64,000 nt of DNA, taken from assembly GCF_019357415.1 (NCBI RefSeq), contig NZ_CP048410.1:1364001-1428000 (forward strand). Reading direction: 5' to 3'. This stretch comes from Gramella sp. MT6 (GTDB taxonomy: Bacteria; Bacteroidota; Bacteroidia; Flavobacteriales; Flavobacteriaceae). A program made the translations under genes and the position numbers. Shown here piece by piece: positions 24,021 to 61,837 of the stretch. The number at the start of each line of letters is the position of its first letter. Positions within the stretch are counted from its first letter, which is position 1. Under the pieces are notes generated by a model. That model did not search any database. It saw only the letters and a program-made list of their open reading frames with translations, and was not told where the DNA came from.

Positions 24021-24094
24021 GGTCTGGTAGTTCAGTTGGTTAGAATACCTGCCTGTCACGCAGGGGGTCGCGAGTTCGAGTCTCGTCCAGACCG
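24021..24094 (+). tRNA. tRNA-Asp (GTC)
   Basis: Cloverleaf of 74 nt: acceptor GGTCTGG/CCAGACC with discriminator G; D-loop AGTTGGTTAGA; anticodon stem-loop CCTGC-CTGTCAC-GCAGG with anticodon GTC; T-arm GTTCGAG in a GCGAG/CTCGT-type stem. It is the insertion target of the mobile element: the last 21 nt plus one more base are repeated at 61816-61837. The element's sequence restores the tRNA 3' end, so the gene is intact. Confidence 0.97.
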
Positions 24095-24095
24095 C
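24074..24095 (+). other. attL, in the tRNA-Asp 3' end
   Basis: This 22-nt sequence (GTTCGAGTCTCGTCCAGACC plus GC) is repeated exactly at 61816-61837. It spans the T-arm and acceptor strand of tRNA-Asp, a standard target for tyrosine integrases. Confidence 0.93.
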
Positions 24096-24229: not shown

Positions 24230-24334
24230 AAAATGCTCACCAGAATAATCGTAAAATACTGTTAATAAAAGGTTTGCGGATTTTTTTTAACATTTTCAGT
24301 ACACCTCTTTTTGTACCTTTCTGGTGAGCATTTT
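24230..24334. repeat. 15-bp perfect inverted repeat flanking the int promoter region
   Basis: AAAATGCTCACCAGA at 24230-24244 is the exact complement of TCTGGTGAGCATTTT at 24320-24334, 75 nt apart and just upstream of the integrase start at 24347. A nearby 10-mer, AATTCGGTGC at 24204-24213, recurs in the same orientation inside the right end at 61753-61762. These are good candidates for integrase arm sites or for sites that control int. Confidence 0.75.
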
Positions 24335-24346
24335 AAAACTGTCACC

Positions 24347-25576
24347 ATGTCAAAACCATTTTCAATTCTCTTTTATCCAAAGCATAGAGCCTCCGATACG
24401 GAAGATTCAGCTGTGCTATACACAAGACTTACCTATGTAGGTAAACGTTCGGAATTCAGCACCAGCCGGCGGATAGATCTTAAATATTGGGATTCTCGTA
24501 GCAGCAAAGCCAGAGGTAATTCTGATGAATCTAGAGCTATTAATAGATATCTTGATTCCATACGTTCCAAACTTTATGATATCCACGATAGGTTAATAAG
24601 AGATAATCAACCCATTTCAGCTAAAATTATAAAGGATATTTATTTTGGGAAAGGGGATGAGAAGGAACGGATGCTGATTGAAATTTTTCAGGAGCATAAC
24701 GATGGGATGGAAAAACTAATTGGTAAAGGCTATACTAAAGGCACTATGCAACGTTATAACGCCTGTAAGAAACATATTGAGGACTATCTTTTATTTTCTT
24801 ATAAGAAGAAAGATATTCCTGTTCAGGATGTCGATCATAAATTTATCACCGGCCTTGACCATTATTTAAAATCACAAAAGGACTGTGCACACAATACAGC
24901 ATTGAAATACATTGTAAATTTCAAAAAGATTATTCGCATAGCTTATGCCAATCAATGGATAGACAGGGATCCATTCTTCCATTGGAAGGGAACTTGGAAA
25001 TCCGCAGAACGGGAATATTTGACTGATTTAGAACTTAAGAAAATGGTGGAAGCAAAATTTGATTTGCCGCGTTTGGATTTGGTAAGGGATATCTTTTTGT
25101 TTTGTTGTTATACCGGATTAGCTTTTGCTGATGTAAAAAAGCTTTCAGAAGATGATATGGTCCTAGGTATGAATGGTAAGAAATGGATCAAAACTAAACG
25201 CCAAAAAACAAAATCATTAAGTAGTATTCCTCTGCTAGAAGTTCCGGAGTCCATAATTGAAAAGTATAAAGATCATCCTCAAGTGAAAGCTAAGAATATA
25301 ATCCTTCCGGTTCTTACCAACCAAAAATCTAATGCCTATTTAAAGGAAATAGCTGACTTGTGCGGAATTAAAAAGAATTTAACTACCCATTTAGCCCGCC
25401 ATACATTTGCAACCACGGTAACGCTTTCAAAGGGAGTTCCAATTGAGTCGGTCGGGAAGATGCTCGGTCACAGATCTCTTAAAACCACTCAGATCTATGC
25501 AAAGGTATTAGATGAGAAAGTGGGTAGGGATATGGAGGTTTTAGAAAAGCAACTTAAGAAAGTAAAGAAAATTTAA
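24347..25576 (+). CDS. Tyrosine recombinase (integrase)
   Basis: This 409-aa protein starts best at the ATG at 24347 ('MSKPFSILFYPKHRASDTED', 20 residues). It has an N-terminal arm-binding domain, a SAM-like core-binding domain (about residues 95-195) and a C-terminal catalytic domain. Visible catalytic residues are H-L-A-R-H ('THLARHTFATT'), G-H ('KMLGHRSLKTTQIYAKV') and the Tyr nucleophile in that stretch. The first catalytic Arg is not in its usual place: the region reads 'CCYTGLAFADVKKLS', the Ala variant common in Bacteroidota integrases. It should integrate and excise the element at tRNA-Asp. Confidence 0.93.
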   Translation: MSKPFSILFYPKHRASDTEDSAVLYTRLTYVGKRSEFSTSRRIDLKYWDSRSSKARGNSDESRAINRYLDSIRSKLYDIHDRLIRDNQPISAKIIKDIYFGKGDEKERMLIEIFQEHNDGMEKLIGKGYTKGTMQRYNACKKHIEDYLLFSYKKKDIPVQDVDHKFITGLDHYLKSQKDCAHNTALKYIVNFKKIIRIAYANQWIDRDPFFHWKGTWKSAEREYLTDLELKKMVEAKFDLPRLDLVRDIFLFCCYTGLAFADVKKLSEDDMVLGMNGKKWIKTKRQKTKSLSSIPLLEVPESIIEKYKDHPQVKAKNIILPVLTNQKSNAYLKEIADLCGIKKNLTTHLARHTFATTVTLSKGVPIESVGKMLGHRSLKTTQIYAKVLDEKVGRDMEVLEKQLKKVKKI

Positions 25577-44718: not shown

Positions 44719-45399
44719 TCATAGTGGCTCTCCATAGTTTTTATCCTGACTGGTATCCATGTTTTCCCTAATATGGGACGGCGCATTAGGTCTTTGATCA
44801 TTTTTCATTTCATCAGCTTTTATCATCCAGTTTCGGGCACAGGCCTTCCAGTTTGTAATCGGATGTTTATCATTTAATTTCCAGCCTATGGATTCGTAAA
44901 AATTATAGAATTTTTTAGCCTCCAGAGAGCTTCTTTTTTCAGACTTAAAATATGCTATAACTACTTGTTCATTTTTTGGACATGTTTGTTTAAAAGAGTT
45001 TATAAAAGGTTTATTCTTATGTTTATTAAAAGAGACCATTTTTTGGACAGGTACCTGTTCAGAAACTGAACAAGTCCTGTCCATTTTTTGATCAGGTAAT
45101 GTATCAAATCTGAACAGTTCCACGAGTGTCCCAATTTTAGGACTATTGCTTGGACGGTATTGAAGGTACCCCCATATTTTTAGCTCCTGAATTAGTTTAT
45201 GATAGGTCGTCCTGGAACGTATTTTGGCCAGTGCCATCACTTGCTTACTGCTCACCATAATCGTTTTCGGAAAGTGTTTTTGATTCCACAGCTCAAAAAA
45301 AGCCAGGTATAAACTGCGATGAGATGACGATATGTTTTCATCATCAGAAAATTTCCGCAAGACTCCGTTCAGATGGTGTATGTAATTAACCTCCCTCAC
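44719..45399 (-). CDS. Replication-initiator-like/HTH protein
   Basis: This 226-aa protein has a winged-helix-like N-terminal part ('SSHRSLYLAFFELWNQKHFP', 20 residues, and 'ALAKIRSRTTYHKLIQELKI', 20 residues) that looks like a DnaD- or Rep-type DNA-binding module. A C-terminal 'FYNFYESIGWKLNDKHPIT' followed by 'NWKACARNWM' is common in phage and plasmid replication proteins. It overlaps mobC by 4 nt. It could be a replication or transfer regulator; palindromes just upstream of its start are possible binding sites. Confidence 0.6.
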   Translation of the reverse strand: MREVNYIHHLNGVLRKFSDDENISSSHRSLYLAFFELWNQKHFPKTIMVSSKQVMALAKIRSRTTYHKLIQELKIWGYLQYRPSNSPKIGTLVELFRFDTLPDQKMDRTCSVSEQVPVQKMVSFNKHKNKPFINSFKQTCPKNEQVVIAYFKSEKRSSLEAKKFYNFYESIGWKLNDKHPITNWKACARNWMIKADEMKNDQRPNAPSHIRENMDTSQDKNYGEPL

Positions 45400-47000
45400 T
45401 TTTTTCGGTTTTCTGCTTTGTAAATCGCTTTGGCTTCCCGGTATATTTTCTGAAGATTCAATTCCATCTCTTCTGGAGAGAACTCATGTTTAGGGGTCGG
45501 TAATTCTTTAGACCAGTTGGGTGTGGCGAATTTTACTTTTCGGTCCTTACCATCAGCAAAGCTTACGAACTCACCCGGTTTTAATCGAAAGAAAACATCG
45601 GCCCTAACCTTGGCCACTTCCCGTTCACTTTTGGTGGTACGGGTGTCGAAATTCAGGTTGTCACTTTTACTTACGCTGATACTTTTCCGCTTCACAATCT
45701 CGAAGAAACTTTCGTAGTATTTGGCGGTATCGGGGTCATTGACCTTCCCGAAAAACTGATAGGACAGATTGCTAAGGATCGCTTTTCCTTCTTCTCTACC
45801 ATAGAGGATATCATTCTGTATTTTATCCTGGATGACATAAACTGTAGCCATATTATAGCTTCTCAGCGTGGCGGGGATACGATGCATGTTAAGCAGGCGG
45901 ATCGTGGAGGCCTCTTCCATGAGGATAAACGAATTAAGTCGTTCATGTACACACATCTGCTTGGTAATACTATGGATGATGGTCGCTACGATGGGGGAAT
46001 AGGCAGATTCAAACTTAGGATTATTCACCACTGAAATCACCCCGGGATTTTCAGCATTATTAATATCCAGGGGGATCTCATCTTCAGATAACACCATAAA
46101 GATCCGCTGCGTACTTATTTTCTTAAACGCATTGGAGAGCGTACTTTTTACCGAAGCCGTCTGTTTTTCAGAATCCACCCCGTTAATAAAAGCATTGGCC
46201 ATCGCCTGGGAGGTATAGTTGGAACTTAAAAAGTCTACTAATTCATAGGTGGTTAACTGCTGGAATAAAGCGATCAGATGCGGCAGGGTACAATAGCCGG
46301 GATGATCGGTTTTAAGCTTCCAGATGAGCCCTCCAATGATCCCTTCCGCGGCATCGTTAAAAAACTTTGAGCTTCCGGAGGAACTACTTTCCTTTTTCTC
46401 CAATAAATTTTCCAGTAGTACCCGGGAGATCTCATTCACGCTTTCTTCGTCCTGCATATAACGAGGGGCAATGGGATTCACCTTGTGGTAAATCCTATCA
46501 AAGGAAATAATATAGAAAGGCATTTTACTTTCTTTGAATAGGGGATAGGCAATTTTGGAGAGTTCAAAATTTTTATAGTCATGGATAATCCCGCAGAAAG
46601 TTCGCCTGCTAAAATATTTTAGAAACTGTGCCACGACACTCTCGGTCTTTCCACTTCCCGCAGCTCCTATAATGGAAACTCCGCGCCGGATGTCTTTTAA
46701 CTTTATCGACCCGGAAGAGAGTGGCATCCGGAAACCATATTGCCTGGTTACTCGATCCCTTTCCCTCTTCAATAACCATTCGTTAAGTAAAATATTGATG
46801 GTTATAAGGGGAATAAAATAGCGTATAGACAGGACCACAAACAGGTCAAAATCAATACCGAAAGGAAAACTGATCACCAGAAGTAAAAAGAGGATCAGAA
46901 AGTTGATGATAAAACCCCAGGAGGTATTTTTCAGGGTAAAGTAAAATAGGCTACCCATGGCAGCATTTAAAAAGAGGATCAAAAGTAAATTAGAATTCAT
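45396..47000 (-). CDS. mobC: MobC: VirD4-like coupling protein
   Basis: This 534-aa protein has three N-terminal hydrophobic segments and an AAA+ DNA-pump domain: Walker A 'IGAAGSGKTESVVAQF' near residue 112 and Walker B-like 'SFILMEEASTIRLLNM'. It fits the Bacteroidota MobC group, coupling proteins that deliver the relaxase-DNA complex to a secretion channel. Because no channel genes are present, it would hand the DNA to the machinery of a helper element. It lies 11 nt after mobB. Confidence 0.85.
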   Translation of the reverse strand: MNSNLLLILFLNAAMGSLFYFTLKNTSWGFIINFLILFLLLVISFPFGIDFDLFVVLSIRYFIPLITINILLNEWLLKRERDRVTRQYGFRMPLSSGSIKLKDIRRGVSIIGAAGSGKTESVVAQFLKYFSRRTFCGIIHDYKNFELSKIAYPLFKESKMPFYIISFDRIYHKVNPIAPRYMQDEESVNEISRVLLENLLEKKESSSSGSSKFFNDAAEGIIGGLIWKLKTDHPGYCTLPHLIALFQQLTTYELVDFLSSNYTSQAMANAFINGVDSEKQTASVKSTLSNAFKKISTQRIFMVLSEDEIPLDINNAENPGVISVVNNPKFESAYSPIVATIIHSITKQMCVHERLNSFILMEEASTIRLLNMHRIPATLRSYNMATVYVIQDKIQNDILYGREEGKAILSNLSYQFFGKVNDPDTAKYYESFFEIVKRKSISVSKSDNLNFDTRTTKSEREVAKVRADVFFRLKPGEFVSFADGKDRKVKFATPNWSKELPTPKHEFSPEEMELNLQKIYREAKAIYKAENRKK

Positions 47001-47011
47001 AACACATAGTT

Positions 47012-48037
47012 TTAATAACTGATAGAACTTGATTTAATACCAGCTTCAATGATTTTTTTGAGTTGTTTATAAGCAAACCCCACTTTATTTTGGGGCAGGT
47101 GTAATACAGGAAGGTGTAGCCCTGTTTGACGGATCATTTTAAATGCGATCTTTTTCTCGTTGATCCCCAATTTGCTTAAGGATACAAAGTATTGTTTAGG
47201 ATCTTTGGTCAGCAGTTTTCTGGCCGCATAGCTTTCCACATAGTTGCGGTTGTACTGAAACATCTTATCGAAGGCTTTTTCCGAATTCTGAATAAAGAAG
47301 TCCCGTTCAAAACCCCGCTTCACTATTTTTCCATGCATCTTTACTTCCGAGGCTTTGTATTTGCTCCCCGGGGAAAGGCTATAGGAATTGGAAGCATCTT
47401 TTCGGCTTACGATGATATGGATATGACTCTGCAGGCCTTCTTTCTTCATGCCCGGTTCCACCACCTGTCCCCGAATCTTATAAGGAGCATCCCGGACCAG
47501 CTTTCGGATGTCGTTTTCAATTTGGCGGATGTTTCCAGGGACTTCCCCGCGCTCTACTTTACGGAGCTCATTTTTTAAGTGCGCAATTTGATTGCTGTAG
47601 GGCTTGTTTTCCCGAACGGCTACATCATTGCTCTTATAGGTGCGCTCATGTTCCAGTTTGGCGAAATATTTAATATCGTCTACACTAATAGGTTTTCCGT
47701 TAATCTCCCGATGAAAAGAGCTGGCATATTCTTTCATGGCTTCTCGAACAAAACCACGGAGTTTTTCCGGATTGTTGTGAATATGTTTTAATTCGTACTG
47801 GCTGGGATTGATGGTAATAGAATAATACTTGGGTTCCTTGAGTTTTAACTTGGCCGTGTTTCCGTCGATCTCTTTAATTACCTGGTAGGGTTTAATTTTA
47901 TCCTCATACTGATTAAAAAAGTATTCTTTGTCCAGCGGATCCTTTCCCTGGTTTTCCTTTTCCAGGTATGTCACAAAATCTCCAGCACTTTGTGAAAAAG
48001 CGCCGCCTAATTTCTGAGGGGTGATGGTGATATACAT
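47012..48037 (-). CDS. mobB: MobB relaxase
   Basis: This 341-aa protein starts 'MYITITPQKLGGAFSQSAGD' (20 residues). 'LQSHIHIIVSRKDASNSYSL' (20 residues) has the H-x-H metal-binding pattern of relaxases. Helices rich in Lys and Glu follow. It belongs to the Bacteroidota relaxase type annotated as MobB/DUF5712. It should nick the transfer origin and lead the strand into the recipient. mobA lies 1 nt upstream and mobC 11 nt downstream. Confidence 0.82.
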   Translation of the reverse strand: MYITITPQKLGGAFSQSAGDFVTYLEKENQGKDPLDKEYFFNQYEDKIKPYQVIKEIDGNTAKLKLKEPKYYSITINPSQYELKHIHNNPEKLRGFVREAMKEYASSFHREINGKPISVDDIKYFAKLEHERTYKSNDVAVRENKPYSNQIAHLKNELRKVERGEVPGNIRQIENDIRKLVRDAPYKIRGQVVEPGMKKEGLQSHIHIIVSRKDASNSYSLSPGSKYKASEVKMHGKIVKRGFERDFFIQNSEKAFDKMFQYNRNYVESYAARKLLTKDPKQYFVSLSKLGINEKKIAFKMIRQTGLHLPVLHLPQNKVGFAYKQLKKIIEAGIKSSSISY

Positions 48038-51410: not shown

Positions 51411-51683
51411 ATGAAGCACAGAAATTTAGATTATGAATTTGATGAACTCTCAAAACTATTGGAGATCATCCTTTCAAGGAACCGCAGTTCTTTGTCAATT
51501 ACCGATGTAGCTCGTTTAGAAAGGTGTATAGCCTTGACGGATGAGTTGAAGAAAGAGCCAAGCCAATCGGGTAGGAAAGATATTATGAACAGTATAGTCC
51601 TCAAACTTCTAGAGTTATTTTGTAAACCTGAAGTGATGGAGCAAATACAAAATGTCTTGAATCAGCTTGGAAACTTAGATTGA
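51411..51683 (+). CDS. Small retron-associated protein of unknown function
   Basis: This 90-aa, mostly helical protein ('MKHRNLDYEFDELSKLLEII', 20 residues, and 'IMNSIVLKLLELFCKPEVME', 20 residues) matches no family I recognise. It starts 14 nt after the end of the retron RNA and is 20 nt upstream of the XRE gene, so it is part of the retron transcript. It could be an effector, or an accessory protein needed for toxicity or immunity. Confidence 0.65.
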   Translation: MKHRNLDYEFDELSKLLEIILSRNRSSLSITDVARLERCIALTDELKKEPSQSGRKDIMNSIVLKLLELFCKPEVMEQIQNVLNQLGNLD

Positions 51684-51703
51684 CCCGTTTTTAATTTATT
51701 ATT

Positions 51704-52012
51704 ATGGATATGAACTTAGGTGAAGCCATACGAAACCAGAGGAAAACATTAAAGATTACACAGAGTGATTTAGCTAAAGCATGCAAAATCACTCCGTCAT
51801 ACCTTTCTATGATTGAAAAAAACAAAAAGGAACCTAATTTATCTACTTTGAAAAAATTAAGTGAAAAACTGGAATTGCCATTACCAGTCCTATTCTTCAA
51901 GTCCCTAGATTCATCTGATATTCCAAAGGAAAAAAGAGATGCTTACAACCTGGTCAGTGATTCGGTAAATAACCTTATAAATAATATTTTTCTAAAGCCC
52001 GATAGTAAGTAA
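51704..52012 (+). CDS. XRE-family HTH protein of the retron
   Basis: This 102-aa protein has a helix-turn-helix of the XRE/Cro type: 'LGEAIRNQRKTLKITQSDLA' (20 residues) and 'KACKITPSYLSMIEKNKKEP' (20 residues). The C-terminal ~40 residues have no known domain. Its stop overlaps the RT start by 1 nt. HTH proteins form part of one described retron class, where they act as the effector or as a DNA-binding partner of the RT-cDNA complex. A pure repressor role is also possible. Confidence 0.85.
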   Translation: MDMNLGEAIRNQRKTLKITQSDLAKACKITPSYLSMIEKNKKEPNLSTLKKLSEKLELPLPVLFFKSLDSSDIPKEKRDAYNLVSDSVNNLINNIFLKPDSK

Positions 52013-52863
52013 TGATCTACTCTGAAAAAGAGTTAGCTTACACTCTAGGCTTTGATCCTGGTGATCTACGTAAGGTCATTAAAAATATTCATTCTTATTA
52101 TAAAGGATTTTCAGAAATTAAATATGATAAGAATGGTAAACCCAAGGTGCGCAAAGGTCAAATTCAGAAAAGATATTTCAAATCTAGTCAAGGTGATTTA
52201 AGAAAACTACAGGATAGACTTCTTAATAGAATACTTGTAAAAGTGCCTCTTCTTCCAAATCTAAAGGGAGGAATGAAAGGTGAAAGTGGAGTAATAAACG
52301 CTAAAGTTCATAAGGGTAATGAATTCATCTTTCAAACAGATATACAAAGTTTCTACCCGTCAATATCAAGAAAAATGGTATATCAGGCGTTGAGAAGCAA
52401 GGGCTTTTCAAAACAAGTAGCTAACTTAATTACTGATTTAACAGTTATTGAATCTGGAGATTCACTAAAAGGAGAAACCTTGCCACAAGGTACTCCAACT
52501 AGCCCAGTTCTCTCAAATATAGTATTTGAAAGAACTGTAAAGCAGATATTTAAAATTTTTAAGGACCAAAAAGTGGAATTGACAACTTGGATAGATGATT
52601 TAACGATTTCCTCGAACGAGGATTTTCAAGCTTCCATTCTTGATGTAATTAAAATTATTGGTAATGACGGATTTAAGATCAGTAGAAAGAAAACTACCTA
52701 TAGGCACGGTAAAACTATCATCACTGGGGTTCTAATTGGGCATTCAACGATGAAAGTGACGAATGACTTTAGAAATAGGGAAAGAGGATATTTGACTGAT
52801 ATTCAATTAAATGGAATGCAGGCTTATAAGGATTACATCTACAGAATAGATAAAAATCTTTAA
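52012..52863 (+). CDS. Retron-type reverse transcriptase
   Basis: This 283-aa protein has reverse transcriptase motifs in order: the retron-specific N-A-x-x-H at residues 96-100 ('GVINAKVHKGNEF'), catalytic Asp in 'TDIQSFYPSIS' (110-118), 'LPQGTPTSPVLSN' (158-169), and 'TTWIDDLTIS' (191-200), where the usual Y-x-D-D is W-I-D-D. 'IITGVLIGH' matches the late V-T-G motif. It makes cDNA from the upstream msr-msd RNA. The length is short but normal for retron RTs. It is the last gene of the retron. Confidence 0.9.
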   Translation: MIYSEKELAYTLGFDPGDLRKVIKNIHSYYKGFSEIKYDKNGKPKVRKGQIQKRYFKSSQGDLRKLQDRLLNRILVKVPLLPNLKGGMKGESGVINAKVHKGNEFIFQTDIQSFYPSISRKMVYQALRSKGFSKQVANLITDLTVIESGDSLKGETLPQGTPTSPVLSNIVFERTVKQIFKIFKDQKVELTTWIDDLTISSNEDFQASILDVIKIIGNDGFKISRKKTTYRHGKTIITGVLIGHSTMKVTNDFRNRERGYLTDIQLNGMQAYKDYIYRIDKNL

Positions 52864-52980
52864 TAGAAAAGCCTCAAAGAGATTATTATGTATACTCCAA
52901 TCAAATTCTGTTTAAACAACAAACTTAGAGTATGTGATAATTTTGTTTTTAAATTCAAACAGCCCATACCTTTAATTAAG

Positions 52981-53060
52981 TGAGCCCACGCGCTGTATAT
53001 ACTATTTGCATTCAGTGAGTGTATCCTTGACCTCACCTTGCGGGTGTACAGGCACCCTCA
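52981..53060 (-). ncRNA. Guide-like RNA unit B (distal)
   Basis: On the minus strand this ~80-nt unit reads GGGTG-N6-CACCC, then CACC-CGCAA-GGTG, then a CACTCAC...GTGGGC stem enclosing an ATGC-AAATA-GTAT hairpin, ending in GCGCGTGGGCTCAC. It is about 80% identical to unit A at 53114-53196. Two stems use G-U pairs on the minus strand that would be A-C mismatches on the plus strand. The 3' flank (from 52980 downward, starting TTAATTAAAGGTATGG) is the presumed guide. Confidence 0.72.
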
Positions 53061-53113
53061 TTTTATTCTGTAAATCTGTTTTTGAGTTCTAGCCTAGAAA
53101 ATCTTAATTATAA

Positions 53114-53196
53114 GTGTCACTCACGCGTTGTATATGCTTAGGGCATTCAGTGAGTGCCATGGTAGACCTCACCTTTCGGGTGTACAAGCACCCTCA
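53114..53196 (-). ncRNA. Guide-like RNA unit A (proximal)
   Basis: This 83-nt unit starts 10 nt after the dCas12f stop codon on the same strand. It reads GGGTG-N6-CACCC, CACC-CGAAA-GGTG, and a 7-bp CACTCAC/GTGAGTG stem around an ATGC-CCTA-AGCAT-type hairpin. The sequence 3' of it (53113 downward, starting TTATAATTAAGATTTTC) is the presumed guide. Position, strand and structure fit a guide RNA read through from, or processed out of, the sigma-dCas12f transcript. Confidence 0.75.
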
Positions 53197-53206
53197 ATAA
53201 TTAATT

Positions 53207-54304
53207 TCAATCTATAATAAGTTCAATGCCTGCTTTCTCTGCCTTGTATTTTATTTTAGTCATTAGTTCAAAGTAACTCCAGTTTCTCACTATAAATTCT
53301 TCCTCCCTGGCTATTTCTGATTTTTCATTTTGATTCAATAATAGAAGAGTTCCCGCCTGATGTTTAACGCAGAAATCTATGAGTCTCCTACTATAAACAT
53401 GAAGGCGATTATGAACATAATTTCTCTCGGTATCACGAAACCTGGTCAGAGCTTTTGTTTTTCTTTTACGTCCTTTGCCAGATCTGGCATATGTAACTCC
53501 CTGTCTGGTTCTTTTTATAGCAGCTTGTATAGCAAGTCGTCGGTATAAAAATTCTTCCCGGTTACCAATGATGTGCTTCTTACTACCAATTTTTACTACG
53601 ATAGGATATTCAAGGGACAAAGTAGCCTCGGCGATCACTTCCGGTTTAAGCTGGTGATTTTCTTTTTTAATTTCGAACACCGGCAGCCAGAAAATCTTGC
53701 CATCCTTAAGTTTAATATGAGAGGTACATAATTTGAGTTCTCCCTTCATAACTCTTTCCAGTAAAACTCGCTTATCAGAAAAGTCTTTTCCCAAATAGGT
53801 CTTTAAGGGTATTTTGAATAACCGAAAACAGAAAGCTCTATTCTCTTCATTATAGGTTATTTTACTCATGCCTTCTATATCGAATGGAAAAGCCATATCC
53901 CTCCTAAAATTTTTTAAAGAACGCTCACCCTTCCAGTATTCGAGTTTTTCCTTATTAAAAGAGCTATATAAGCTACTTTTTAGATTAGTTAAAATATTGG
54001 TAGGGATTTCACCTTTAAACCGGTTGGATACCACCCGATAAGTGGTATGGATTCGGGAACCATTTAAAATGCCGAGATCGTCCTTTTTTTCATCTGCCAG
54101 TTTATACTTAACCTTTTCTGATAAATAGAGAAAGTCCTTGATCATTTCCTGAACGTATAGATGAGTGATCATAAAATTAGCTGCCCGATAAGCCCTGTTT
54201 TGCCATTGGTAGAGTGTATCCAGCGCTTCCTTTCGCTCTTCTTTCGAAGGCAGGTCTATCAGCACCTGGATTTTCCGCGTCAATTTCATCGTTTCCTTTG
54301 CCAT
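53207..54304 (-). CDS. Nuclease-dead Cas12f/TnpB-like protein
   Basis: This 365-aa protein has the TnpB/Cas12f order: an N-terminal helical/REC and OB-like part (1-220) and a RuvC-like part. 'ALTRFRDTERNYVHNRLHVY' (285-304) and 'FELMTKIKYKAEKAGIELII' (345-364) are the RuvC bridge and post-RuvC-II helices. All three catalytic sites are gone: the G-I-D-x-G site reads 'VVKIGSKK' (237-243), the E-D-L site reads 'LLLLNQNE' (320-327), and the protein stops before the zinc finger and RuvC-III Asp. It should bind DNA under RNA guidance without cutting. It begins 1 nt after the sigma factor gene and is followed by two structured RNA units. Confidence 0.82.
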   Translation of the reverse strand: MAKETMKLTRKIQVLIDLPSKEERKEALDTLYQWQNRAYRAANFMITHLYVQEMIKDFLYLSEKVKYKLADEKKDDLGILNGSRIHTTYRVVSNRFKGEIPTNILTNLKSSLYSSFNKEKLEYWKGERSLKNFRRDMAFPFDIEGMSKITYNEENRAFCFRLFKIPLKTYLGKDFSDKRVLLERVMKGELKLCTSHIKLKDGKIFWLPVFEIKKENHQLKPEVIAEATLSLEYPIVVKIGSKKHIIGNREEFLYRRLAIQAAIKRTRQGVTYARSGKGRKRKTKALTRFRDTERNYVHNRLHVYSRRLIDFCVKHQAGTLLLLNQNEKSEIAREEEFIVRNWSYFELMTKIKYKAEKAGIELIID

Positions 54305-54305
54305 A

Positions 54306-55091
54306 TCAAGCCAGTTCTAATTTATCACTGTGTTTCTCCTGCATTAACTTATAAGCCGCTGCAAATGCAGCATGTACTTGCTTGTGAGATAGATTAAGTT
54401 CAGTGGCAATGACTTCAAAGGAATATTTCTTTGTACATCGCAGCTCCATTACTTTTTGTTGTTCAGTTAAAATTTCATCCTGAACTTTTCCTTTCACAAT
54501 AGATTGCGGCTTAGATTCTGGTTTACTATCATGGTTGAGAATATTTTTAAGATCCTGAATGGCTTGCTTTACCTCATTACTGGCTTCGGTTATACTTATT
54601 CCCATTATCCTGGCAATCACCTTATACCGAAACCCATATTTCAAACAGAGTTCAATAAGTCTTTTTCGTTCTGGGATTAATAAGGGTAATACTTTTTGTA
54701 CGAGTTCAAAATCTTCCTGTTGAGATTCATGGTCCTTCTGGTTCTGGATATCTTCTTTGGGATCATACCCTGCAAGATAATCCTGATAGTTCTCATAGCT
54801 TTCTAAAGAATTTATCTTCTGAAAGAACTTACGCTTAGGGCTGGTATAATAAGTATAACATTCTCTTTTCATCACCATTCTCAAAAAGAAGAAAAGATGT
54901 TTCTCTGATTCGATCTTATCCCGGTTCGACCATAATTTTAAAAAAGTATCCTGGACTAAACATTCTACAACGAAATCATCATTGATAATTCCTTTGCCCA
55001 ACCGGTAAACCATACGGCTGTATCGGTTATGTATAAATTTTAAAGCGGCAGGATGATCCTGTGATAGTAATTTATAATAATCATGTGACAT
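54306..55091 (-). CDS. ECF-like sigma factor paired with dCas12f
   Basis: This 261-aa protein has sigma region 2 (about residues 10-85: 'RYSRMVYRLGKGIINDDFVV', 20 residues, and 'VQDTFLKLWSNRDKIESEKH', 20 residues) and a region 4-like HTH (about 135-185: 'LLIPERKRLIELCLKYGFRY', 20 residues, with 'IARIMGISITEASNEVKQAI'). Unlike usual ECF factors (~180-200 aa), a second C-terminal HTH follows (about 207-255: 'EQQKVMELRCTKKYSFEVIA', 20 residues). Sigma factors of this kind co-occur with nuclease-dead Cas12f in flavobacteria, where the RNA-guided complex recruits RNA polymerase. No anti-sigma gene is present, so control may be by the guide. Confidence 0.82.
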   Translation of the reverse strand: MSHDYYKLLSQDHPAALKFIHNRYSRMVYRLGKGIINDDFVVECLVQDTFLKLWSNRDKIESEKHLFFFLRMVMKRECYTYYTSPKRKFFQKINSLESYENYQDYLAGYDPKEDIQNQKDHESQQEDFELVQKVLPLLIPERKRLIELCLKYGFRYKVIARIMGISITEASNEVKQAIQDLKNILNHDSKPESKPQSIVKGKVQDEILTEQQKVMELRCTKKYSFEVIATELNLSHKQVHAAFAAAYKLMQEKHSDKLELA

Positions 55092-55171: not shown

Positions 55172-55353
55172 TTACTTCCCGAACTTCAGGGCTTTTTCCA
55201 CTTGTTCTAACATTTTATGATATTCTGCAATTAATTCATCTGCATATACCGGAGTTCTATCACCGCTAAGACAATATCTTATATAACGAGGAGTCACTTT
55301 GTATTTACAAGCAAGGGCTTTTACTACACCCGTGTTATAAGTTTTCTTCATAA
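55172..55353 (-). pseudogene. Small HTH-like ORF with A AAA AAG frameshift site
   Basis: From ATG 55353 the frame reads MKKTYNTGVVKK and stops after 19 codons. A -1 shift at the zero-frame heptamer A AAA AAG (codons GTA AAA AAG) opens a frame that continues 'ALACKYKVTPRYIRYCLSGD' (20 residues) to a stop at 55172, giving about 60 aa. The joined product resembles small flavobacterial HTH proteins of the 'GVVKALxxKYxVxxRxIRxxLxGDR' type (from memory). It is either a pseudogene with two extra A, a sequencing error, or programmed -1 frameshifting. It lies 80 nt upstream of the sigma gene, same strand. Confidence 0.6.
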
Positions 55354-55381: not shown

Positions 55382-55458
55382 TGTTCCTTTATTCGGAACA
55401 GAACCAAATATAGTTGATAATTTTCAACTAAACTAACTTTTTGAAGATAATTATCTTC
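55382..55458. promoter_or_regulatory. Divergent control region with three inverted repeats
   Basis: Between the sigma-dCas12f unit and the divergent HTH gene lie TGTTCC-N7-GGAACA (55382-55400), TAGTTGA-N6-TCAACTA (55411-55430) and the perfect palindrome GAAGATAATTATCTTC (55443-55458). On the minus strand TATATTTG (55412-55405) is a -7 box for the sigma side and overlaps the second repeat. Confidence 0.7.
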
Positions 55459-55461
55459 TAT

Positions 55462-55872
55462 ATGAGAAATATTTTACAAGTTTTTATAGATATTGCCCAC
55501 AATGAAGGGGTTACTATTACCAGTTTAGAAAAGACAATTGGTGCTAGTAAAGGTGTTTTATCTCGGGCAATTAGTAAAGGCACAGATATTCAGGCAAAGT
55601 GGTTATTAGCATTAGTTGATAATTATCCCCGTTATAGTGCAGAATGGATTTTAACAGGAAATGGTCCTATGCTTCAAATGGATTCCAAAGAATCAATTTT
55701 TAATGAAACTGATCCAAGTGTTCTGCGCGAGAAATTGGTTAACCTCCAGAACCAAATAGATGCCCTGGAAAAAGCAAATAATGCTTTAGAAGATGCCAAT
55801 GATTCTTTGAAGGAAACGAAAGCAATTCTTCAGAAACGTATTGCAGAACTTGAAAACAGTTCAAAAAACTAA
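55462..55872 (+). CDS. Phage-repressor-like HTH protein with coiled coil
   Basis: Starting at ATG 55462 gives 136 aa. An N-terminal HTH ('ITSLEKTIGASKGVLSRAIS', 20 residues) and 'YSAEWILTGNGPML' match CI-like repressors of Bacteroidota mobile elements. The C-terminal ~55 residues form a heptad coiled coil ('LVNLQNQIDALEKANNALED', 20 residues), which would give dimers. It lies directly downstream of a perfect 16-bp palindrome and diverges from the sigma-dCas12f unit, so it probably represses itself and that unit. Confidence 0.82.
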   Translation: MRNILQVFIDIAHNEGVTITSLEKTIGASKGVLSRAISKGTDIQAKWLLALVDNYPRYSAEWILTGNGPMLQMDSKESIFNETDPSVLREKLVNLQNQIDALEKANNALEDANDSLKETKAILQKRIAELENSSKN

Positions 55873-56106: not shown

Positions 56107-57051
56107 GTGCATAATATGTTTGAAGAGCCGAACTTTTTTTGGAAAAATTTCAGATTAGGAACTGAATTACAAAGTTCAGGAACCTTCATTTATAATGCTC
56201 TTTATTTTCTTGATAAACTAGAATACCTCAGATTTGAAGAAGATATATTTGAATTTCTTTATAATACTTCTCAAGGAATAGAAAGGATACAGAAAATTGC
56301 AATAATCTTATTGGATCATAACGATGATACTAATCAGGAAAAATTTGAGAAAGATCTCATAACTCATAACCACATAAATCTTCACGAAAGAATAATTGCT
56401 AAAAAGGAACTCAATTTAAGCAGACTACATAAAAGATTTTTAGATCTCCTTTCAAAATTTTACAATTCCTATCGATATAACAGGTTCAATAAATCATCTG
56501 TTTATCACAAAAATTTTGATAAGTATGAATTTCTAAACTTTGTTAGTAGTGAACTAAAGATTGAAATTGATCCAAGATATGACTGTCTAGAAAATACAAT
56601 TCAGGTAAAAAAGTTTCTTGGCAAATGCGTAGGTAAAATTGTTTGCAAATTATACGAATTGATAAGAAATAGGGCTTACGACATTGGAACTTTTACTTAT
56701 GAGATTCGTTATCAATCAAAAGCCTTTAAAATATTCACTAAAAAGCAATACACCTTTGAATCTGAAAATAATTTCAAAAAAGAAATAATAGTAAGTCTGA
56801 TAAATAACAGTTTAAAAGACGATTTCACTGATTATATAAAAACATTAAAATCTCTAAATTTTGAAAATCACAACTCTTCATATTATATAAAATATTTATT
56901 GAATGACATTGAAGATATAAGTGTCTTGAGTGAATATGAATATCTTTTATATGACAAACAAGTACCAAAAACCCGAAATGAAGAAATTGAGAGAATTGGA
57001 GAAGCTCAATATTTAAATAATGATTGGGATGGGATGGACGAAGAAGAGTAG
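56107..57051 (+). CDS. Hypothetical protein of the cassette-like run
   Basis: This 314-aa protein starts at GTG 56107 or ATG 56116. It is AT-rich and mostly helical ('FIYNALYFLDKLEYLRFEED', 20 residues, then 'TSQGIERIQKIAIIL'). I do not recognise a family. The 'GIERIQKIAI' helix and nearby His residues recall HEPN-like proteins, but no clear R-x(4-6)-H motif is present. It ends in an acidic 'WDGMDEEE' tail. A GC-richer spacer follows. Confidence 0.55.
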   Translation: MHNMFEEPNFFWKNFRLGTELQSSGTFIYNALYFLDKLEYLRFEEDIFEFLYNTSQGIERIQKIAIILLDHNDDTNQEKFEKDLITHNHINLHERIIAKKELNLSRLHKRFLDLLSKFYNSYRYNRFNKSSVYHKNFDKYEFLNFVSSELKIEIDPRYDCLENTIQVKKFLGKCVGKIVCKLYELIRNRAYDIGTFTYEIRYQSKAFKIFTKKQYTFESENNFKKEIIVSLINNSLKDDFTDYIKTLKSLNFENHNSSYYIKYLLNDIEDISVLSEYEYLLYDKQVPKTRNEEIERIGEAQYLNNDWDGMDEEE

Positions 57052-57087
57052 TTTAGCATACTATGCACAACCACGCATACTGCAAAT

Positions 57088-57196
57088 GGCGGGTTTCAGA
57101 GAAAAGAACTAAATTAGTTTCCATAATTAAACAAACCGTTAAGCCCAAAACTCCGTGTGCTAATCTGCGCACACTGGTTAATCGCGGCCGTTGGGC
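57088..57196. repeat. Cassette-type spacer 1
   Basis: A GC-richer ~110-nt spacer with GCGGGTTTCAG, CCGTTAAGCCC, a GTGTGC/GCGCAC pair and a terminal CGTTGGGC (GTTRRRY-like). Its layout parallels the spacers at 58003 and 59172. Confidence 0.55.
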
Positions 57197-57217
57197 ATCA
57201 TTAATTAGATAGATTCA

Positions 57218-57976
57218 GTGAAACAAGAAGTTGAAATTATTGGACATCCATTTTTATTTAGATTTCGACCTGATAATGAGAATACCTTAGATGAAATTGA
57301 AAATTCTTATATATTCTTTCCAGATAGAAACTTATTAAATAATCCATTTGATTCGAGCCCTGATCTAATAAATTTAATTTCAGATAAAATAGATTCAACT
57401 GAATATTTTAATTTTTACAATAAAAGGTTGCCTTTAGATATTGATAAAAGATTTCTGAAAAGAAATTTTACACCAAAACAACTAATGGAATTGACAAAGG
57501 AGAATATTCCAAAATATTTAGATTCATTTGGAATTGCCTGTTTTTCAATGACACCATATATCAACATGACTTTATGGGCCAATTATGCAAATAATCATCA
57601 AGGTATTTGTATTCAATATAGATCAGATTACGATGAAGGGTTTTTCAACAATATGAGGGTGGTTAAATATTATGAGAAACTTGAAAAGATAGATTTCAAT
57701 CCATTGGAAAATGAATTCAAAATCCAAGATGTTTTCTTTATAAAAGATAAAAGTTGGGATTACGAAAAGGAACTTAGAATTGTAAAATTTAAGAAAGGAA
57801 AAAAACCAATACAGAATAAAGCTATAAGAAATATCGTATGCGGTTATAAAGCCAAAGATGAGTTTATTGAAAAACTTGTAAAACTTGTAGATAGAGCGCA
57901 AATGGATATCGGAATATATATAATGGATAAACCTAAAAAGCAATATGGAGTTTCTCTAACTAGAAGGAATAAATGA
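57218..57976 (+). CDS. DUF2971 protein
   Basis: This 252-aa protein starts at a GTG. 'CFSMTPYINMTLWANYANNH' (20 residues), 'QGICIQYRSD' and 'KSWDYEKELRIVKF' are the hallmarks of DUF2971, a family often found in defence and mobile-element contexts. Conserved Trp, His and Glu residues suggest an enzyme, but no activity is established. Spacers of cassette type lie on both sides. Confidence 0.8.
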   Translation: MKQEVEIIGHPFLFRFRPDNENTLDEIENSYIFFPDRNLLNNPFDSSPDLINLISDKIDSTEYFNFYNKRLPLDIDKRFLKRNFTPKQLMELTKENIPKYLDSFGIACFSMTPYINMTLWANYANNHQGICIQYRSDYDEGFFNNMRVVKYYEKLEKIDFNPLENEFKIQDVFFIKDKSWDYEKELRIVKFKKGKKPIQNKAIRNIVCGYKAKDEFIEKLVKLVDRAQMDIGIYIMDKPKKQYGVSLTRRNK

Positions 57977-58002
57977 TGCTCAATATCATTTCATCGCCAA
58001 TA

Positions 58003-58112
58003 GCCGGCAGCGTTAGAAAGAAAATAATTAACTTGACTCGCGAACCAAAACTAAGCCGGCAAATCCGCGTCCTTACTCCCGCAACTTGTGAACCGCAAAC
58101 TGGTAGCTGCAA
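58003..58112. repeat. Cassette-type spacer 2
   Basis: GCCGGCAGCGTTAGA, AGAAAATAATTA, CTAAGCCGGC, CGCGTCCTTACTC and ACTTGT occur in the same order as in the spacer at 59172-59280, which shows the two are homologous. Confidence 0.65.
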
Positions 58113-58133
58113 CCCGAAACCAAAATTCTAATT

Positions 58134-58352
58134 ATGGAACAATTTGACGATTTTGAAGAATATAAAAAATTTCAAACTGAGTGGGCTCTCTTAAATTTGG
58201 TTAGAGAATTAAGAGGCATCTCCAATAAAGGTGCAACGCCTACATATTATAGTTCAATTAAACTTGCTCAACAGGTTATACCTGAAATCTTTAATGATAA
58301 ATCGTTGATCGTTGAGAGACATCACGAACCCATTTGGTTGACAAAAGGATGA
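58134..58352 (+). CDS. Small protein paired with nuclease-like gene
   Basis: This 72-aa protein ('MEQFDDFEEYKKFQTEWALL', 20 residues) has no recognisable domain. Its stop overlaps the ATG of the next gene (ATGA at 58349), so the two are translationally coupled and may form a toxin/antitoxin-like or effector/sensor pair. Confidence 0.6.
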   Translation: MEQFDDFEEYKKFQTEWALLNLVRELRGISNKGATPTYYSSIKLAQQVIPEIFNDKSLIVERHHEPIWLTKG

Positions 58353-59140
58353 ATGTTTTAAATCAACAATTGGCAACAGACATCCAAAATAAAGATCTTT
58401 TAAAGAAAGAATTAAATAAGCTTCAAATAGTTCGTTCAATGTTGTTGCCAAGAAGTATCCAAGAAGATTACATTTTGGAACACGATGTAAAATCAATGAA
58501 GTTCGGAGTTCAACCAATGGATATTAAAGCGAAATCAACAGATTATAAAGTCTCAGAAAATAGAGTTATAAGAGTACGATTGATTCATCCAAATGAAGGT
58601 GAACAATCAATGGGGGCGGATTTAATTTATGAGCAATACGATCCAGAAAAAAAGAAAGTCCGCTTTATAATGATCCAATACAAAATATGGGATGGAGAAT
58701 TTTTATATTGGTCTCAGGCAAAAAATTTAGATCCTCAAATTAAAAAATTGGAAGACAATCTTTGTAAGAAAGGATTTTGTCATTGTGAGTTGGGACGAAA
58801 TCATTCAACAGATTATAGATATCCGTTTTGTTCCGCATTCCTAAGACCTACAGATAAATTACAATTTAAGGATAGTCCTTTTACTTCTTCCGGTATGCAC
58901 ATCCCAATTTGTAGAATTAATGGTGTAGCTGTAGAGTCTAAAGAAGGAAATAAAATACTAAGGAAACAGAATATGAAGCATACTTCTTTATCTCATAAAG
59001 TTTTTGAAGAAAGCTTCAATTATAATCAAATTGGTAGTCGTTGGATGACCTATGAAGAAGCTGAAAAATTGTACAAAGAGCATAAAATTCTTGAAAATGA
59101 TGAGAGAATTATAGTTCACGTACAAGAACTAGAAATGTAA
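58349..59140 (+). CDS. Possible PD-(D/E)xK-type nuclease
   Basis: This 263-aa protein starts at ATG 58349. 'SMGADLIYEQYDPEKKKVRF' (20 residues) followed by 'IMIQYKIWDGEFLYW' shows G-A-D...Q-x-K, as in nucleases of the Cap4/DUF4297 and Mrr-like type. A Cys/His cluster follows ('CKKGFCHCELGRNHS', 'YPFCSAF'), perhaps binding zinc. It may be the effector of a two-gene defence unit with the coupled 72-aa protein. The family is not certain. Confidence 0.5.
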   Translation: MNVLNQQLATDIQNKDLLKKELNKLQIVRSMLLPRSIQEDYILEHDVKSMKFGVQPMDIKAKSTDYKVSENRVIRVRLIHPNEGEQSMGADLIYEQYDPEKKKVRFIMIQYKIWDGEFLYWSQAKNLDPQIKKLEDNLCKKGFCHCELGRNHSTDYRYPFCSAFLRPTDKLQFKDSPFTSSGMHIPICRINGVAVESKEGNKILRKQNMKHTSLSHKVFEESFNYNQIGSRWMTYEEAEKLYKEHKILENDERIIVHVQELEM

Positions 59141-59171
59141 TCAGGCTGCAGCTAACAACTAACTTAAATAT

Positions 59172-59280
59172 GCGGTACCGTTAGATAGAAAATAATTATA
59201 TTTCCCAAGAAACTAGGTCTTAAGCCGACAACGTCGCGTACCTACTCCGCAAACTTGTATAATGCGAGAGCGCTAGCGCT
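59172..59280. repeat. Cassette-type spacer 3
   Basis: Homologous to the spacer at 58003: CGTTAGA, AGAAAATAATTA, CTTAAGCCGAC, CGCGTACCTACTCCGC, ACTTGT. It is preceded by GCTAACAACTAAC and ends in AGCGCTAGCGCT, a palindrome. Confidence 0.65.
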
Positions 59281-59303
59281 GATTTCTTATAAAAAACGTT
59301 CGA

Positions 59304-61475
59304 ATGAAACAGATTAAAATTGATTTTGAAAATTGCTTTGGAATTGGAAAATTAAAACATCAATTTGATTTTGAGAAAAGTAGTACTCACATAGTTTATG
59401 CGCCAAATGGGACAATGAAAACTTCTTTCGCAAAAACATTCCAGTTAGTTTCAAAAGATGATCCTAGAAATAAACCCTGCGATCGAATATACAAATCAAG
59501 AGTTTCTAAATATGAGATTCAAAATGGGGAATCCGAATTAATTCCAGATGACATTTTGGTTGTAAATGCCGAAGATGACAGTTTTGATGCATCAAGCAAG
59601 ATCAGTAGTTTTCTTGCACGCAAAGAACTAAAAGATGAATATGACAATATTTATCAGGAATTAAATGAATTAAAGGTTGAATTCATTAAAAAATTGAAAG
59701 GCATATCGCAAAGTACTGATTGCGAAACTGAATTCATAAATACATTTTCAGAAAAGGAGAATTCTGAATTTTTTGAAGTTCTTTCTAAACAAATTAATCA
59801 TCTCAAAGATGAATATGAGGAATATGATTTTCGTTACAATGATATATTTGATAAAAAAGGGAATGTGAAAAAATTTCTTGATAAGAATCAAGCAATTTTA
59901 GATCAATACGTTAGCAATTACAAAAATATAATATCGAAGTCGAAATTCTTTAAAGAATCAGCCAATAATACATTCGGCACTTATCAGGCAAATAATATAA
60001 TAAGATCAATAGAGGATAATTCTTTTTTTGAAGCTGGGCATAAATTTATTTTAGAGGATGGAACTGAAATTGATAATGCTGAAAATTTAAAGGCTATAGT
60101 TAAGGAAGAAATCGAAAAAATTTTAAATGATGAAAAACTAAAAAAATCATTTGAGAAAGTGGATAAAGCTATTGGTTCAAATGCAGAATTAAGGGCCTTT
60201 AAAAAAGTTATTGAAAAAAATAATTTGATATTAGTAAAACTGAAAGATTACGAAAAGTTTAAACAAGAAGTTTGGTTTAATTACTTTTCTGAAATTAAAA
60301 AAGAAGCAGAAGAATTAGTAGTTCACTACAAAGGGAAAAAAAGTAGATTAGAAGAGATTATTAAAGAATCAAAAAAAGAATTTGAAGTATGGATCAAAAT
60401 CATAGAAACTTTCAATTCTAGATTCCATGTTCCCTTCAAAGTTAATATTGTTAATCAAGAGGATATTATTTTAAAAGAAGAAACTGCTAATTTAAATTTT
60501 GATTATTCCGATAGAGAAGAAGACCCTGTAAAACAAAATCGAGAAAATTTATTGACGATTTTGAGTAAGGGTGAGCAAAGAGCATATTTTATTCTTCATT
60601 TTTTATTCGAAATTGAATCTAGAAAATTAAGGCCTAATAAGAATCTTTTGATTTTTGATGATGTAGCAGATTCATTTGATTACAAAAATAAGTTCGCCAT
60701 AATTGAGTACATAAAAGAAATTCACGAACAAGATCATTTTAAAATAATTGTATTAACACATAATTTTGACTTTTATAGAACCGTTGCTTCAAGATTACAT
60801 TTGGATAGAGATGTAATTTATATGACAACCAAAAATGCTCAAAATGAAATAACTTTTCATCCAGGTCAATATATAAATGACGTCTTTAGTTACCTTATCA
60901 GAAATTATCAAAATCCGAAGTTCTTTATAAGTCTAATTGCGTTCGTACGAAATTTAATTGAATACAGTGAATCTAAGAGTAATGCCGACTATTTAACTCT
61001 TACAAGTTGTCTACACAGAAAAGAAGAAACGGGCGACTTAATAGTAGATCAAATTTTTGAGATATTTAAAACTAGGTTGGTCAAACTGCAAGATAAAGCT
61101 ATAGCTTTTGGAGAAAAAAATTTAATTGACTTTATAATTGAAACAGCAGATTCAATTTCGGATGAAGATGCCGATGAAATAGCTCTTGAAAATAAAATCT
61201 GCCTGGCAATAGCTATTAGATTACAAGCAGAAAAATATTTAATTGATAAACTTCCAGAGGTAGATCTATCAGATATTAAGAAAAATCAAACTCAAGTTTT
61301 ATATAGAGAATATAGTTCTAATTATCCCGATAGTGAAGCTATAATTACATTAGATAAAGTTAATTTAATGACACCAGAAAACATCCATATGAATGCCTTT
61401 ATGTTTGAACCATTAATTGATATGTCTATAAATCATTTGAAACTTTTGTATAGAGCCGTAAGTAATTTAAACTAA
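59304..61475 (+). CDS. ABC/AAA-type ATPase, RloC/PrrC-like
   Basis: This 723-aa protein has an SMC/Rad50-like ATPase head split by a coiled coil: Walker A 'VYAPNGTMKTSFAKTF' at the N-terminus, a Lys/Glu-rich helical region (about 100-370), signature 'ILSKGEQRAYFILHFLF', Walker B 'LLIFDDVADSFDYKNKF' and the H-loop 'IIVLTHNFDFYR'. This plan is shared with AAA_13 proteins such as RloC and PrrC. The ~200-residue C-terminus may be the effector; its motif is not clear. It is the last gene before attR. Confidence 0.72.
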   Translation: MKQIKIDFENCFGIGKLKHQFDFEKSSTHIVYAPNGTMKTSFAKTFQLVSKDDPRNKPCDRIYKSRVSKYEIQNGESELIPDDILVVNAEDDSFDASSKISSFLARKELKDEYDNIYQELNELKVEFIKKLKGISQSTDCETEFINTFSEKENSEFFEVLSKQINHLKDEYEEYDFRYNDIFDKKGNVKKFLDKNQAILDQYVSNYKNIISKSKFFKESANNTFGTYQANNIIRSIEDNSFFEAGHKFILEDGTEIDNAENLKAIVKEEIEKILNDEKLKKSFEKVDKAIGSNAELRAFKKVIEKNNLILVKLKDYEKFKQEVWFNYFSEIKKEAEELVVHYKGKKSRLEEIIKESKKEFEVWIKIIETFNSRFHVPFKVNIVNQEDIILKEETANLNFDYSDREEDPVKQNRENLLTILSKGEQRAYFILHFLFEIESRKLRPNKNLLIFDDVADSFDYKNKFAIIEYIKEIHEQDHFKIIVLTHNFDFYRTVASRLHLDRDVIYMTTKNAQNEITFHPGQYINDVFSYLIRNYQNPKFFISLIAFVRNLIEYSESKSNADYLTLTSCLHRKEETGDLIVDQIFEIFKTRLVKLQDKAIAFGEKNLIDFIIETADSISDEDADEIALENKICLAIAIRLQAEKYLIDKLPEVDLSDIKKNQTQVLYREYSSNYPDSEAIITLDKVNLMTPENIHMNAFMFEPLIDMSINHLKLLYRAVSNLN

Positions 61476-61815: not shown

Positions 61816-61837
61816 GTTCGAGTCTCGTCCAGACCGC
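61816..61837 (+). other. attR
   Basis: Exact copy of the 22 nt at 24074-24095, from the tRNA-Asp 3' end. The rest of the tRNA is absent here, so this is the displaced end left by integration. Confidence 0.92.

Follow-up and report, generated by a model that had tools for sequence, protein, structure and literature searches.

The closest described counterparts of the locus reported here are the dCas12f-RpoE systems, the published representative of which presumably comes from Allomuricauda (Flagellimonas) taeanensis (locus L036 in our comparison). In these systems a nuclease-dead Cas12f (dCas12f) is found together with a sigma factor and a guide RNA, and they are represented by PDB entries 9n9c, 9n9m, 9n9o and 9n9q. 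The unit of Gramella sp. MT6 resembles them in having the sigma factor, dCas12f and guide RNA in this order on one strand, in the homology of both proteins almost from end to end, and in a scaffold family common to this unit and A. taeanensis. Judged by this homology, it belongs to the known dCas12f-sigmaE RNA-guided transcription systems. It differs in carrying two guides, one of which has an exact host target in a leader-RNA gene before SusC/SusD genes, and in that the sigma gene is preceded not by the leader RNA but by a small HTH-like ORF and by a divergent one. What is new here is the target, the single perfect site of guide 2 in a leader-RNA gene before SusC/SusD.

Two other groups of proteins are related more distantly. 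TldR proteins are RNA-guided repressors according to PMC13418256. They share with this unit a dead RuvC domain, a guide RNA and carriage on mobile DNA, whereas the unit described here co-encodes a sigma factor and its protein is nearer to Cas12f. To our knowledge, TldR acts without a sigma partner, and an assignment of the unit to TldR repressors was rejected, as the sigma partner is present in 80 of 80 relatives (the best 80 of 116). The Cas12f nucleases (9nzo, 7wju) are homologous in sequence, but in dCas12f none of their three RuvC positions is kept and the zinc finger is missing; with no intact RuvC, a classification as CRISPR type V-F Cas12f was also discarded.

Sigma factor and nuclease-dead Cas12f

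The unit lies in the window, by which we mean the whole 64,000-nt stretch that was analysed. Its protein-coding genes and the ORFs upstream are as follows.

54306..55091, minus strand: sigma-E/ECF sigma factor (RpoE homologue), 261 aa, by TIGR02937, Pfam and PDB 9n9q_C
53207..54304, minus strand: nuclease-dead Cas12f (dCas12f), 365 aa, by PDB 9n9c (E 1e-176 over residues 1-364)
55172..55351, minus strand: small HTH-like ORF (by eye), 59 aa, upstream of the sigma gene, at the position of the leader RNA in many relatives
55441..55872, plus strand: divergent ORF of 143 aa, predicted regulator, with a close homologue in L010, L012, L032, L035, L038 and L046

The stop codon of the sigma ORF lies 1 nt before the ATG of dCas12f, both on the minus strand, in agreement with the preliminary description of an ECF-like sigma gene 1 nt ahead of a 365-aa Cas12f-like gene. 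The searches suggested there, of 54306-55091 against sigmaE sets and of 53207-54304 against Cas12f/TnpB, gave clear matches for both proteins. The sigma factor matched TIGR02937 (3e-21, NCBIfam profiles) and, over residues 5-259, RpoE of PDB 9n9q (9n9q_C; E 6e-81, 275 bits). Its domains, Pfam Sigma70_r2 and two Sigma70_r4-type stretches, correspond to region 2, region 4 and a second C-terminal region-4-like HTH. Matches to the sigma factors of relatives reach residue 249-261 of the 261-aa query, so that a sigma factor with two HTH motifs is the norm in this family.

Residues 1-364 of the Cas12f-like protein match 'Nuclease-deactivated Cas12f' of 9n9c, 9n9m, 9n9o and 9n9q (590 bits and E 1e-176 for 9n9c), so that the solved homologue spans 364 of the 365 residues. 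Pfam gave no match at E<=1, and the NCBIfam profiles of TnpB (7.6e-14) and Cas12f2 (1.3e-5) matched below their curated cut-offs. Active Cas12f nucleases were also found to be homologous in the PDB search (9nzo, 164 bits; 7wju, 59 bits). The first RuvC Asp (VGVDLG in 9nzo) aligns with Thr (EATLSL), the RuvC Glu (MERL in 9nzo) falls in LLLL, and dCas12f stops at residue 365, while the 9nzo chain (506 aa) continues, so that dCas12f lacks the third Asp as well as the zinc finger. The earlier claim that the zinc finger and every RuvC catalytic position are lost was thereby confirmed, and the protein is called nuclease-dead by the positions and roles of the catalytic residues in 9nzo.

One genome per species was scanned for relatives; 139 pattern matches were obtained, 116 were confirmed and the best 80 were kept. 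A sigma homologue is located within 0.5 kb upstream of dCas12f in all 80 of these best 80 of 116. Both ORFs of the present unit are intact and 92% identical to those of relative L010. The 59-aa ORF has a homologue in 6 of the 80 relatives (best 80 of 116), namely L010, L012, L032, L035, L038 and L046, and neither this ORF (55172..55351) nor the 143-aa ORF (55441..55872) had a Pfam match.

Guide RNA genes

Two related units follow the dCas12f gene on the same strand.

53127..53196, minus strand: guide RNA 1 scaffold, covariance model R2, E 4e-18 in the Gramella genome (the unit is a seed of the model)
53103..53126, minus strand: guide 1, GCGTGAGTGACACTTATAATTAAG, presumed length, of the GCGTG...CTTAT form of the leader-RNA strand
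52992..53060, minus strand: guide RNA 2 scaffold, covariance model R2, E 8e-17 (the unit is a seed of the model)
52968..52991, minus strand: guide 2, GCGTGGGCTCACTTAATTAAAGGT, presumed length, whose first 15 nt match a chromosomal site behind a 5' G

The scaffold has the form GAGGGTGCTTGTACACCC...CACTCACTAAATGC...GCATATACAAC and is kept in 40 aligned units, with 16 pairs, four of which are changed on both sides (n=40). At E<=1 the scaffold covariance model finds three copies in the Gramella genome. Two belong to the unit and the third accompanies a relic dCas12f gene (G000:C1:2658599-2659306); all three are among the seeds of the model. Single-sequence folds of the guide units are weak in comparison with shuffled sequences (z -1.7 to +0.2), and the evidence for guide RNA units is therefore comparative. 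By the covariation over 40 units and the covariance model, the two structured units noticed earlier belong to a real RNA family. The extent first given for the whole unit, 52981..55091, holds for the ORFs and falls slightly short at the other end, since guide 2 would reach approximately 52968.

A guide could be parsed after the scaffold in 78 of 81 loci (the best 80 of 116 relatives and the window). It starts with (G)GCGTG or CGTG, as the matching strand of the leader RNA does, in 64 of the 81, mostly as GCGTGGGCT, and 14 of the 78 loci with a parsed guide, including that of A. taeanensis, have no guide of the GCGTG type.

The chromosomal site of guide 2

In a scan of the 3.77-Mb genome, the first 15 nt of guide 2 together with a 5' G matched at 16 of 16 positions at G000:C1:3174845-3174860 (+). 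The putative guide is therefore identical over 15 nt to a site behind a 5' G, and the match is oriented towards susC; beyond 15 nt the guide and the site diverge. There is no second perfect site in this genome and a control with the reversed pattern gave 0 matches. At up to 2 mismatches the other matches were the gene of guide 2 itself and the guide of the relic locus. The G beside the site agrees with the 5'-G adjacent motif that the published dCas12f-RpoE work reportedly describes, and a genomic target with this motif was found for guide 2 only.

The site is located inside the gene of a 161-nt structured leader RNA (G000:C1:3174762-3174922), and a 30-mer of the leader RNA also matches at this chromosomal site. 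With a covariance model of the leader, this is the single copy in the genome, none being found elsewhere at E<=1, and the sigma locus itself is without a leader RNA. On the same strand, 470 bp downstream of the leader, Pfam identifies SusC (993 aa), SusD (467 aa) and an M16 peptidase. Upstream of the leader, an HTH_3 regulator of 86 aa is encoded divergently. Type I restriction-modification-like genes (by eye) are also present upstream of the target operon (L094:5390-8072, minus strand).

For guide 1, searches of the same genome (19-mer, up to 3 mismatches; 15-mer, up to 2) gave its own gene and one 2-mismatch match without the G, and the best match among 121 leader sequences, some of them repeated between sets, had 3 mismatches of 16. 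Guide 1 shares the GCGTG...CTTAT form with the leader strands and therefore likely addresses a leader variant that is missing here and belongs to another host.

A leader RNA family upstream of SusC

Sequences of the guide type (up to 2 of 14 mismatches) were first met approximately 170-250 bp upstream of the sigma gene in 17 relatives, inside a structured RNA. Among 39 aligned copies of this leader, 34 pairs are predicted and 15 of them are changed on both sides, a number reached by 0 of 500 shuffles; pairing holds in 98.6% of cells, compared with 32-39% for slid controls, the structure being predicted from the same alignment that was used for the covariation test. In an alternative fold, the guide-matching strand and the 3' tail form a terminator-like hairpin, followed by a T run in most copies. 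Its 17 pairs are kept in 96.7% of cells (slid controls 34-57%). Both sides have changed in 6 of them, a count that 4 of 500 shuffles attained, and 0 of 500 attained the covariation score. The two pairings are mutually exclusive, an attenuator layout.

The leader was found in 33 of 149 sampled genomes of the family, with up to 7 copies in a genome and 61 model matches. For a census of neighbouring genes, 40 regions from the list of 149 genomes were taken together with L094, the copies located at sigma loci and some weak copies being excluded; two short partial matches were dropped, and the profile search then scored 41 leader copies. SusC is among the next three larger genes in 27 of the 41, 13 are without it and 1 is at a contig end. 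The guide 2 site thus belongs to a covarying RNA family that precedes SusC in most copies examined. A divergent ORF is located 60-220 bp upstream in 32 of the 41 copies, many of these ORFs being XRE-like by eye.

Two of the 27 SusC-linked leaders have ECF-sigma-like and FecR-like genes in between. This order, leader, ECF-sigma-like and FecR-like genes (by eye) and then SusC, is seen in L158 and L165, and the leader may therefore also regulate classical sigma/anti-sigma uptake operons. Region L171 had no match in the profile search. In five regions of one genome, G019 (L136, L140, L146, L154 and L161), the leader is followed not by SusC but by proteins of 110-122 aa that seem related by eye; this genome had no dCas12f match at E<=1e-40.

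Two assumptions on the leader were abandoned. It is not a riboswitch or 6S-type RNA of Rfam 15: the leader region of L094 (8700-8960) had no Rfam 15 match at E<=5, and six leader-carrying loci (L011, L030, L036, L039, L047 and L064) gave nothing but tRNAs at gathering scores. Neither is it confined to sigma-dCas12f loci, as copies occur elsewhere in genomes of the family. No description of a leader RNA before susC, or of one as a shared address, was met in our literature searches; the primary dCas12f-sigma papers may contain it. Being present in 33 of 149 sampled genomes and before SusC in 27 of 41 scored copies, this RNA family merits a study of its own.

Guides and leaders across genomes

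dCas12f (E<=1e-40) is encoded in 8 of the 149 sampled genomes, and the leader is present in 8 of these 8 versus 25 of the 141 without dCas12f (Fisher 2.8e-6, uncorrected for relatedness). Among 33 other dCas12f genomes, reached via 36 of the 80 loci, 32 carry the leader, about a third of the 33 being already known to have it at the sigma gene. In a set of 64 leader copies from dCas12f genomes, from which most copies at sigma loci were left out, SusC lies within 3.5 kb in 40, a sigma gene in 8 and neither in 16.

The guides of these genomes were compared with their SusC-linked leaders in the 25 of 32 genomes that have both a parsed guide and such a leader. The best guide of the same genome matches with up to 2 of 14 mismatches in 18 of the 25, up to 1 in 16 and 0 in 4, and in 7 of the 25 no guide comes as close as 2 of 14. 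In the background, up to 2 of 14 mismatches were reached in 2 of 1419 flanking 165-nt windows, those near scaffolds being left out; an earlier count with guide genes kept in gave 1 of 438 windows at up to 2. A variant guide of L037 (GGCGTGTCATCC) fits a variant SusC-linked leader of its own genome (L211) with 1 of 14 mismatches. The guide of L058 has 0 of 14 mismatches to a SusC leader in trans and 2 of 14 to the leader at its own sigma gene. Guides of Chryseobacterium match approximately 10-12 nt before a T run. At the 43 loci with a leader before the sigma gene and a parsed guide, the two agree within 2 of 14 in 17 and do not in 26.

It is possible, with a probability that we would put slightly below even, that one address is common to the RNA-guided sigma factors of flavobacteria. 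Their guides would reproduce a single strand of a switch-like leader, itself undescribed, that precedes SusC/SusD operons and in many cases the sigma-dCas12f operon as well, so that a mobile element could start transcription past the terminator and command the uptake operons of its host. If the leader is such a general address, sequence data could reveal the regulons of dCas12f-sigma systems with this type of guide, and RNA would be shown to be the means by which a mobile element reprograms the nutrient uptake of its host.

The same resemblance might arise if the guide pairs with the leader RNA, or was copied from the leader, without targeting the DNA of its gene. Two parts of the leader, an arm in its 5' hairpin and one in its terminator, are indeed complementary to the guide strand, and a permutation test revealed no genome-specific tuning of guides to leaders (mismatch 2.14 in the own genome versus 2.31 with shuffled genomes; 21 genomes, p 0.18). 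Against this, the homologue of known structure belongs, as a nuclease-dead Cas12f, to a DNA-targeting family, and unrelated guides occur in the same slot. In units parsed with up to 1 scaffold mismatch, moreover, G never precedes the guide, while a G is present at 20 of 24 sites matched with up to 2 of 14 mismatches, as would be required for the guide gene to be spared; for the sites of Chryseobacterium, this rule holds only with the guide read one base later. The leader is also found in genomes that lack dCas12f; the conservation of its strand thus has reasons at the RNA level, and the 5' G cannot be counted as independent evidence. On balance, RNA pairing or copying appears very improbable, and targeting of the leader gene is retained as the preferred reading.

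Proposed mechanism

The sigma factor and dCas12f, homologous to the solved dCas12f-RpoE complex, probably act together with the two predicted guides. Through guide 2, RNA polymerase would be directed to one leader-RNA site before SusC/SusD, which would likely switch this operon on. Complex formation, DNA binding and activation are proposed by homology with the solved complex and from the literature. On the same grounds, the guide would pair with the template strand of DNA and the sigma factor would place RNA polymerase downstream. The target of the guide would be the 5' arm of the terminator hairpin of the leader, with the new start past that arm; judging from the position of the site, transcripts starting there might escape termination and enter susCD. 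Guide 1 would address a leader variant of another host in the same way.

The site is within the leader gene, where an R-loop would stop elongation, and dead TnpB relatives (TldR) act as RNA-guided repressors according to PMC13418256. dCas12f might accordingly be a roadblock, in the manner of TldR or CRISPRi, that silences the leader RNA and changes susCD indirectly, the sigma factor serving other promoters or its own operon only. We consider this unlikely, since 80 of 80 relatives (best 80 of 116) encode the sigma factor together with dCas12f, homologues of both are found together in one PDB entry (9n9q), and the match of the guide is directed towards susC, as activation would require.

Activation through guide 2 would turn the vague notion of an RNA-guided transcription system, put forward in the preliminary description, into a testable circuit of one guide, one exact site and one operon. 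That notion is favoured by the homology of both proteins to the 9n9q complex, by the adjacent guide genes and by the match of one guide before a host uptake operon; for guide 1, no target was found.

The mobile element and its cargo

The following features belong to the element that carries the unit.

24074..24095: att repeat (22-bp direct repeat) at the 3' end of tRNA-Asp (tRNA at 24021-24095), left end of the element
24311..25576, plus strand: tyrosine integrase of the element, beside the tRNA, Pfam Phage_integrase
45396..47000, minus strand: type IV coupling protein, Pfam TrwB_AAD_bind and TraG-D_C
47012..48037, minus strand: DUF5712 protein, putative relaxase, Pfam PF18976 (1.7e-108)
61816..61837: att repeat (22-bp direct repeat), right end of the element

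The 22-bp repeats of the tRNA-Asp 3' end bound 37.8 kb, which enclose the sigma-dCas12f unit; the sigma gene, dCas12f and the two predicted guide genes thus lie in one orientation on a tRNA-Asp element. With these repeats, the integrase, the coupling protein and the likely relaxase, carriage by an integrated mobile element, as supposed at the outset, is supported. The view that such carriage is unusual was not supported. A homologue of the DUF5712 protein is encoded in the flanks (at most 8 kb fetched a side) of 14 of 80 relatives (best 80 of 116), including A. taeanensis L036, and a relic copy of dCas12f in the same genome has relaxase-like and integrase-like ORFs close to it (by eye).

This relic (G000:C1:2658599-2659396; L004:8600-9397) is 64% identical to dCas12f and has two stop codons; no sigma gene was found beside it, and the genome has no second close sigma gene. 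An intact-looking guide RNA is present at the locus, and its guide, GCGTGGGCTTTCTTATT, nearly fits the leader site of guide 2. The relic at G000:C1:2658599, with its two stops and no second close sigma gene, could be taken as a sign that the unit in the window is likewise decaying cargo, intact in sequence and with no working target that benefits host or element, as could the fact that one of the two guides has no target found. Both ORFs are intact, however, with 92% identity to L010, and the first 15 nt of guide 2 match their site without a mismatch, so that decay is hardly probable at all.

Type I restriction-like genes are also located inside the element. A type VI retron-like set of reverse transcriptase, HTH and small protein (padloc RT_VI, SP_VI) at 51411-52863 (plus strand) stands tail to tail with the guide RNAs. 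Candidate defence genes, PDC-S31 (57218-57976) and PDC-S46 (59304-61475, 846 bits), are found at 56107-61475 (plus strand), inside the right end of the element.
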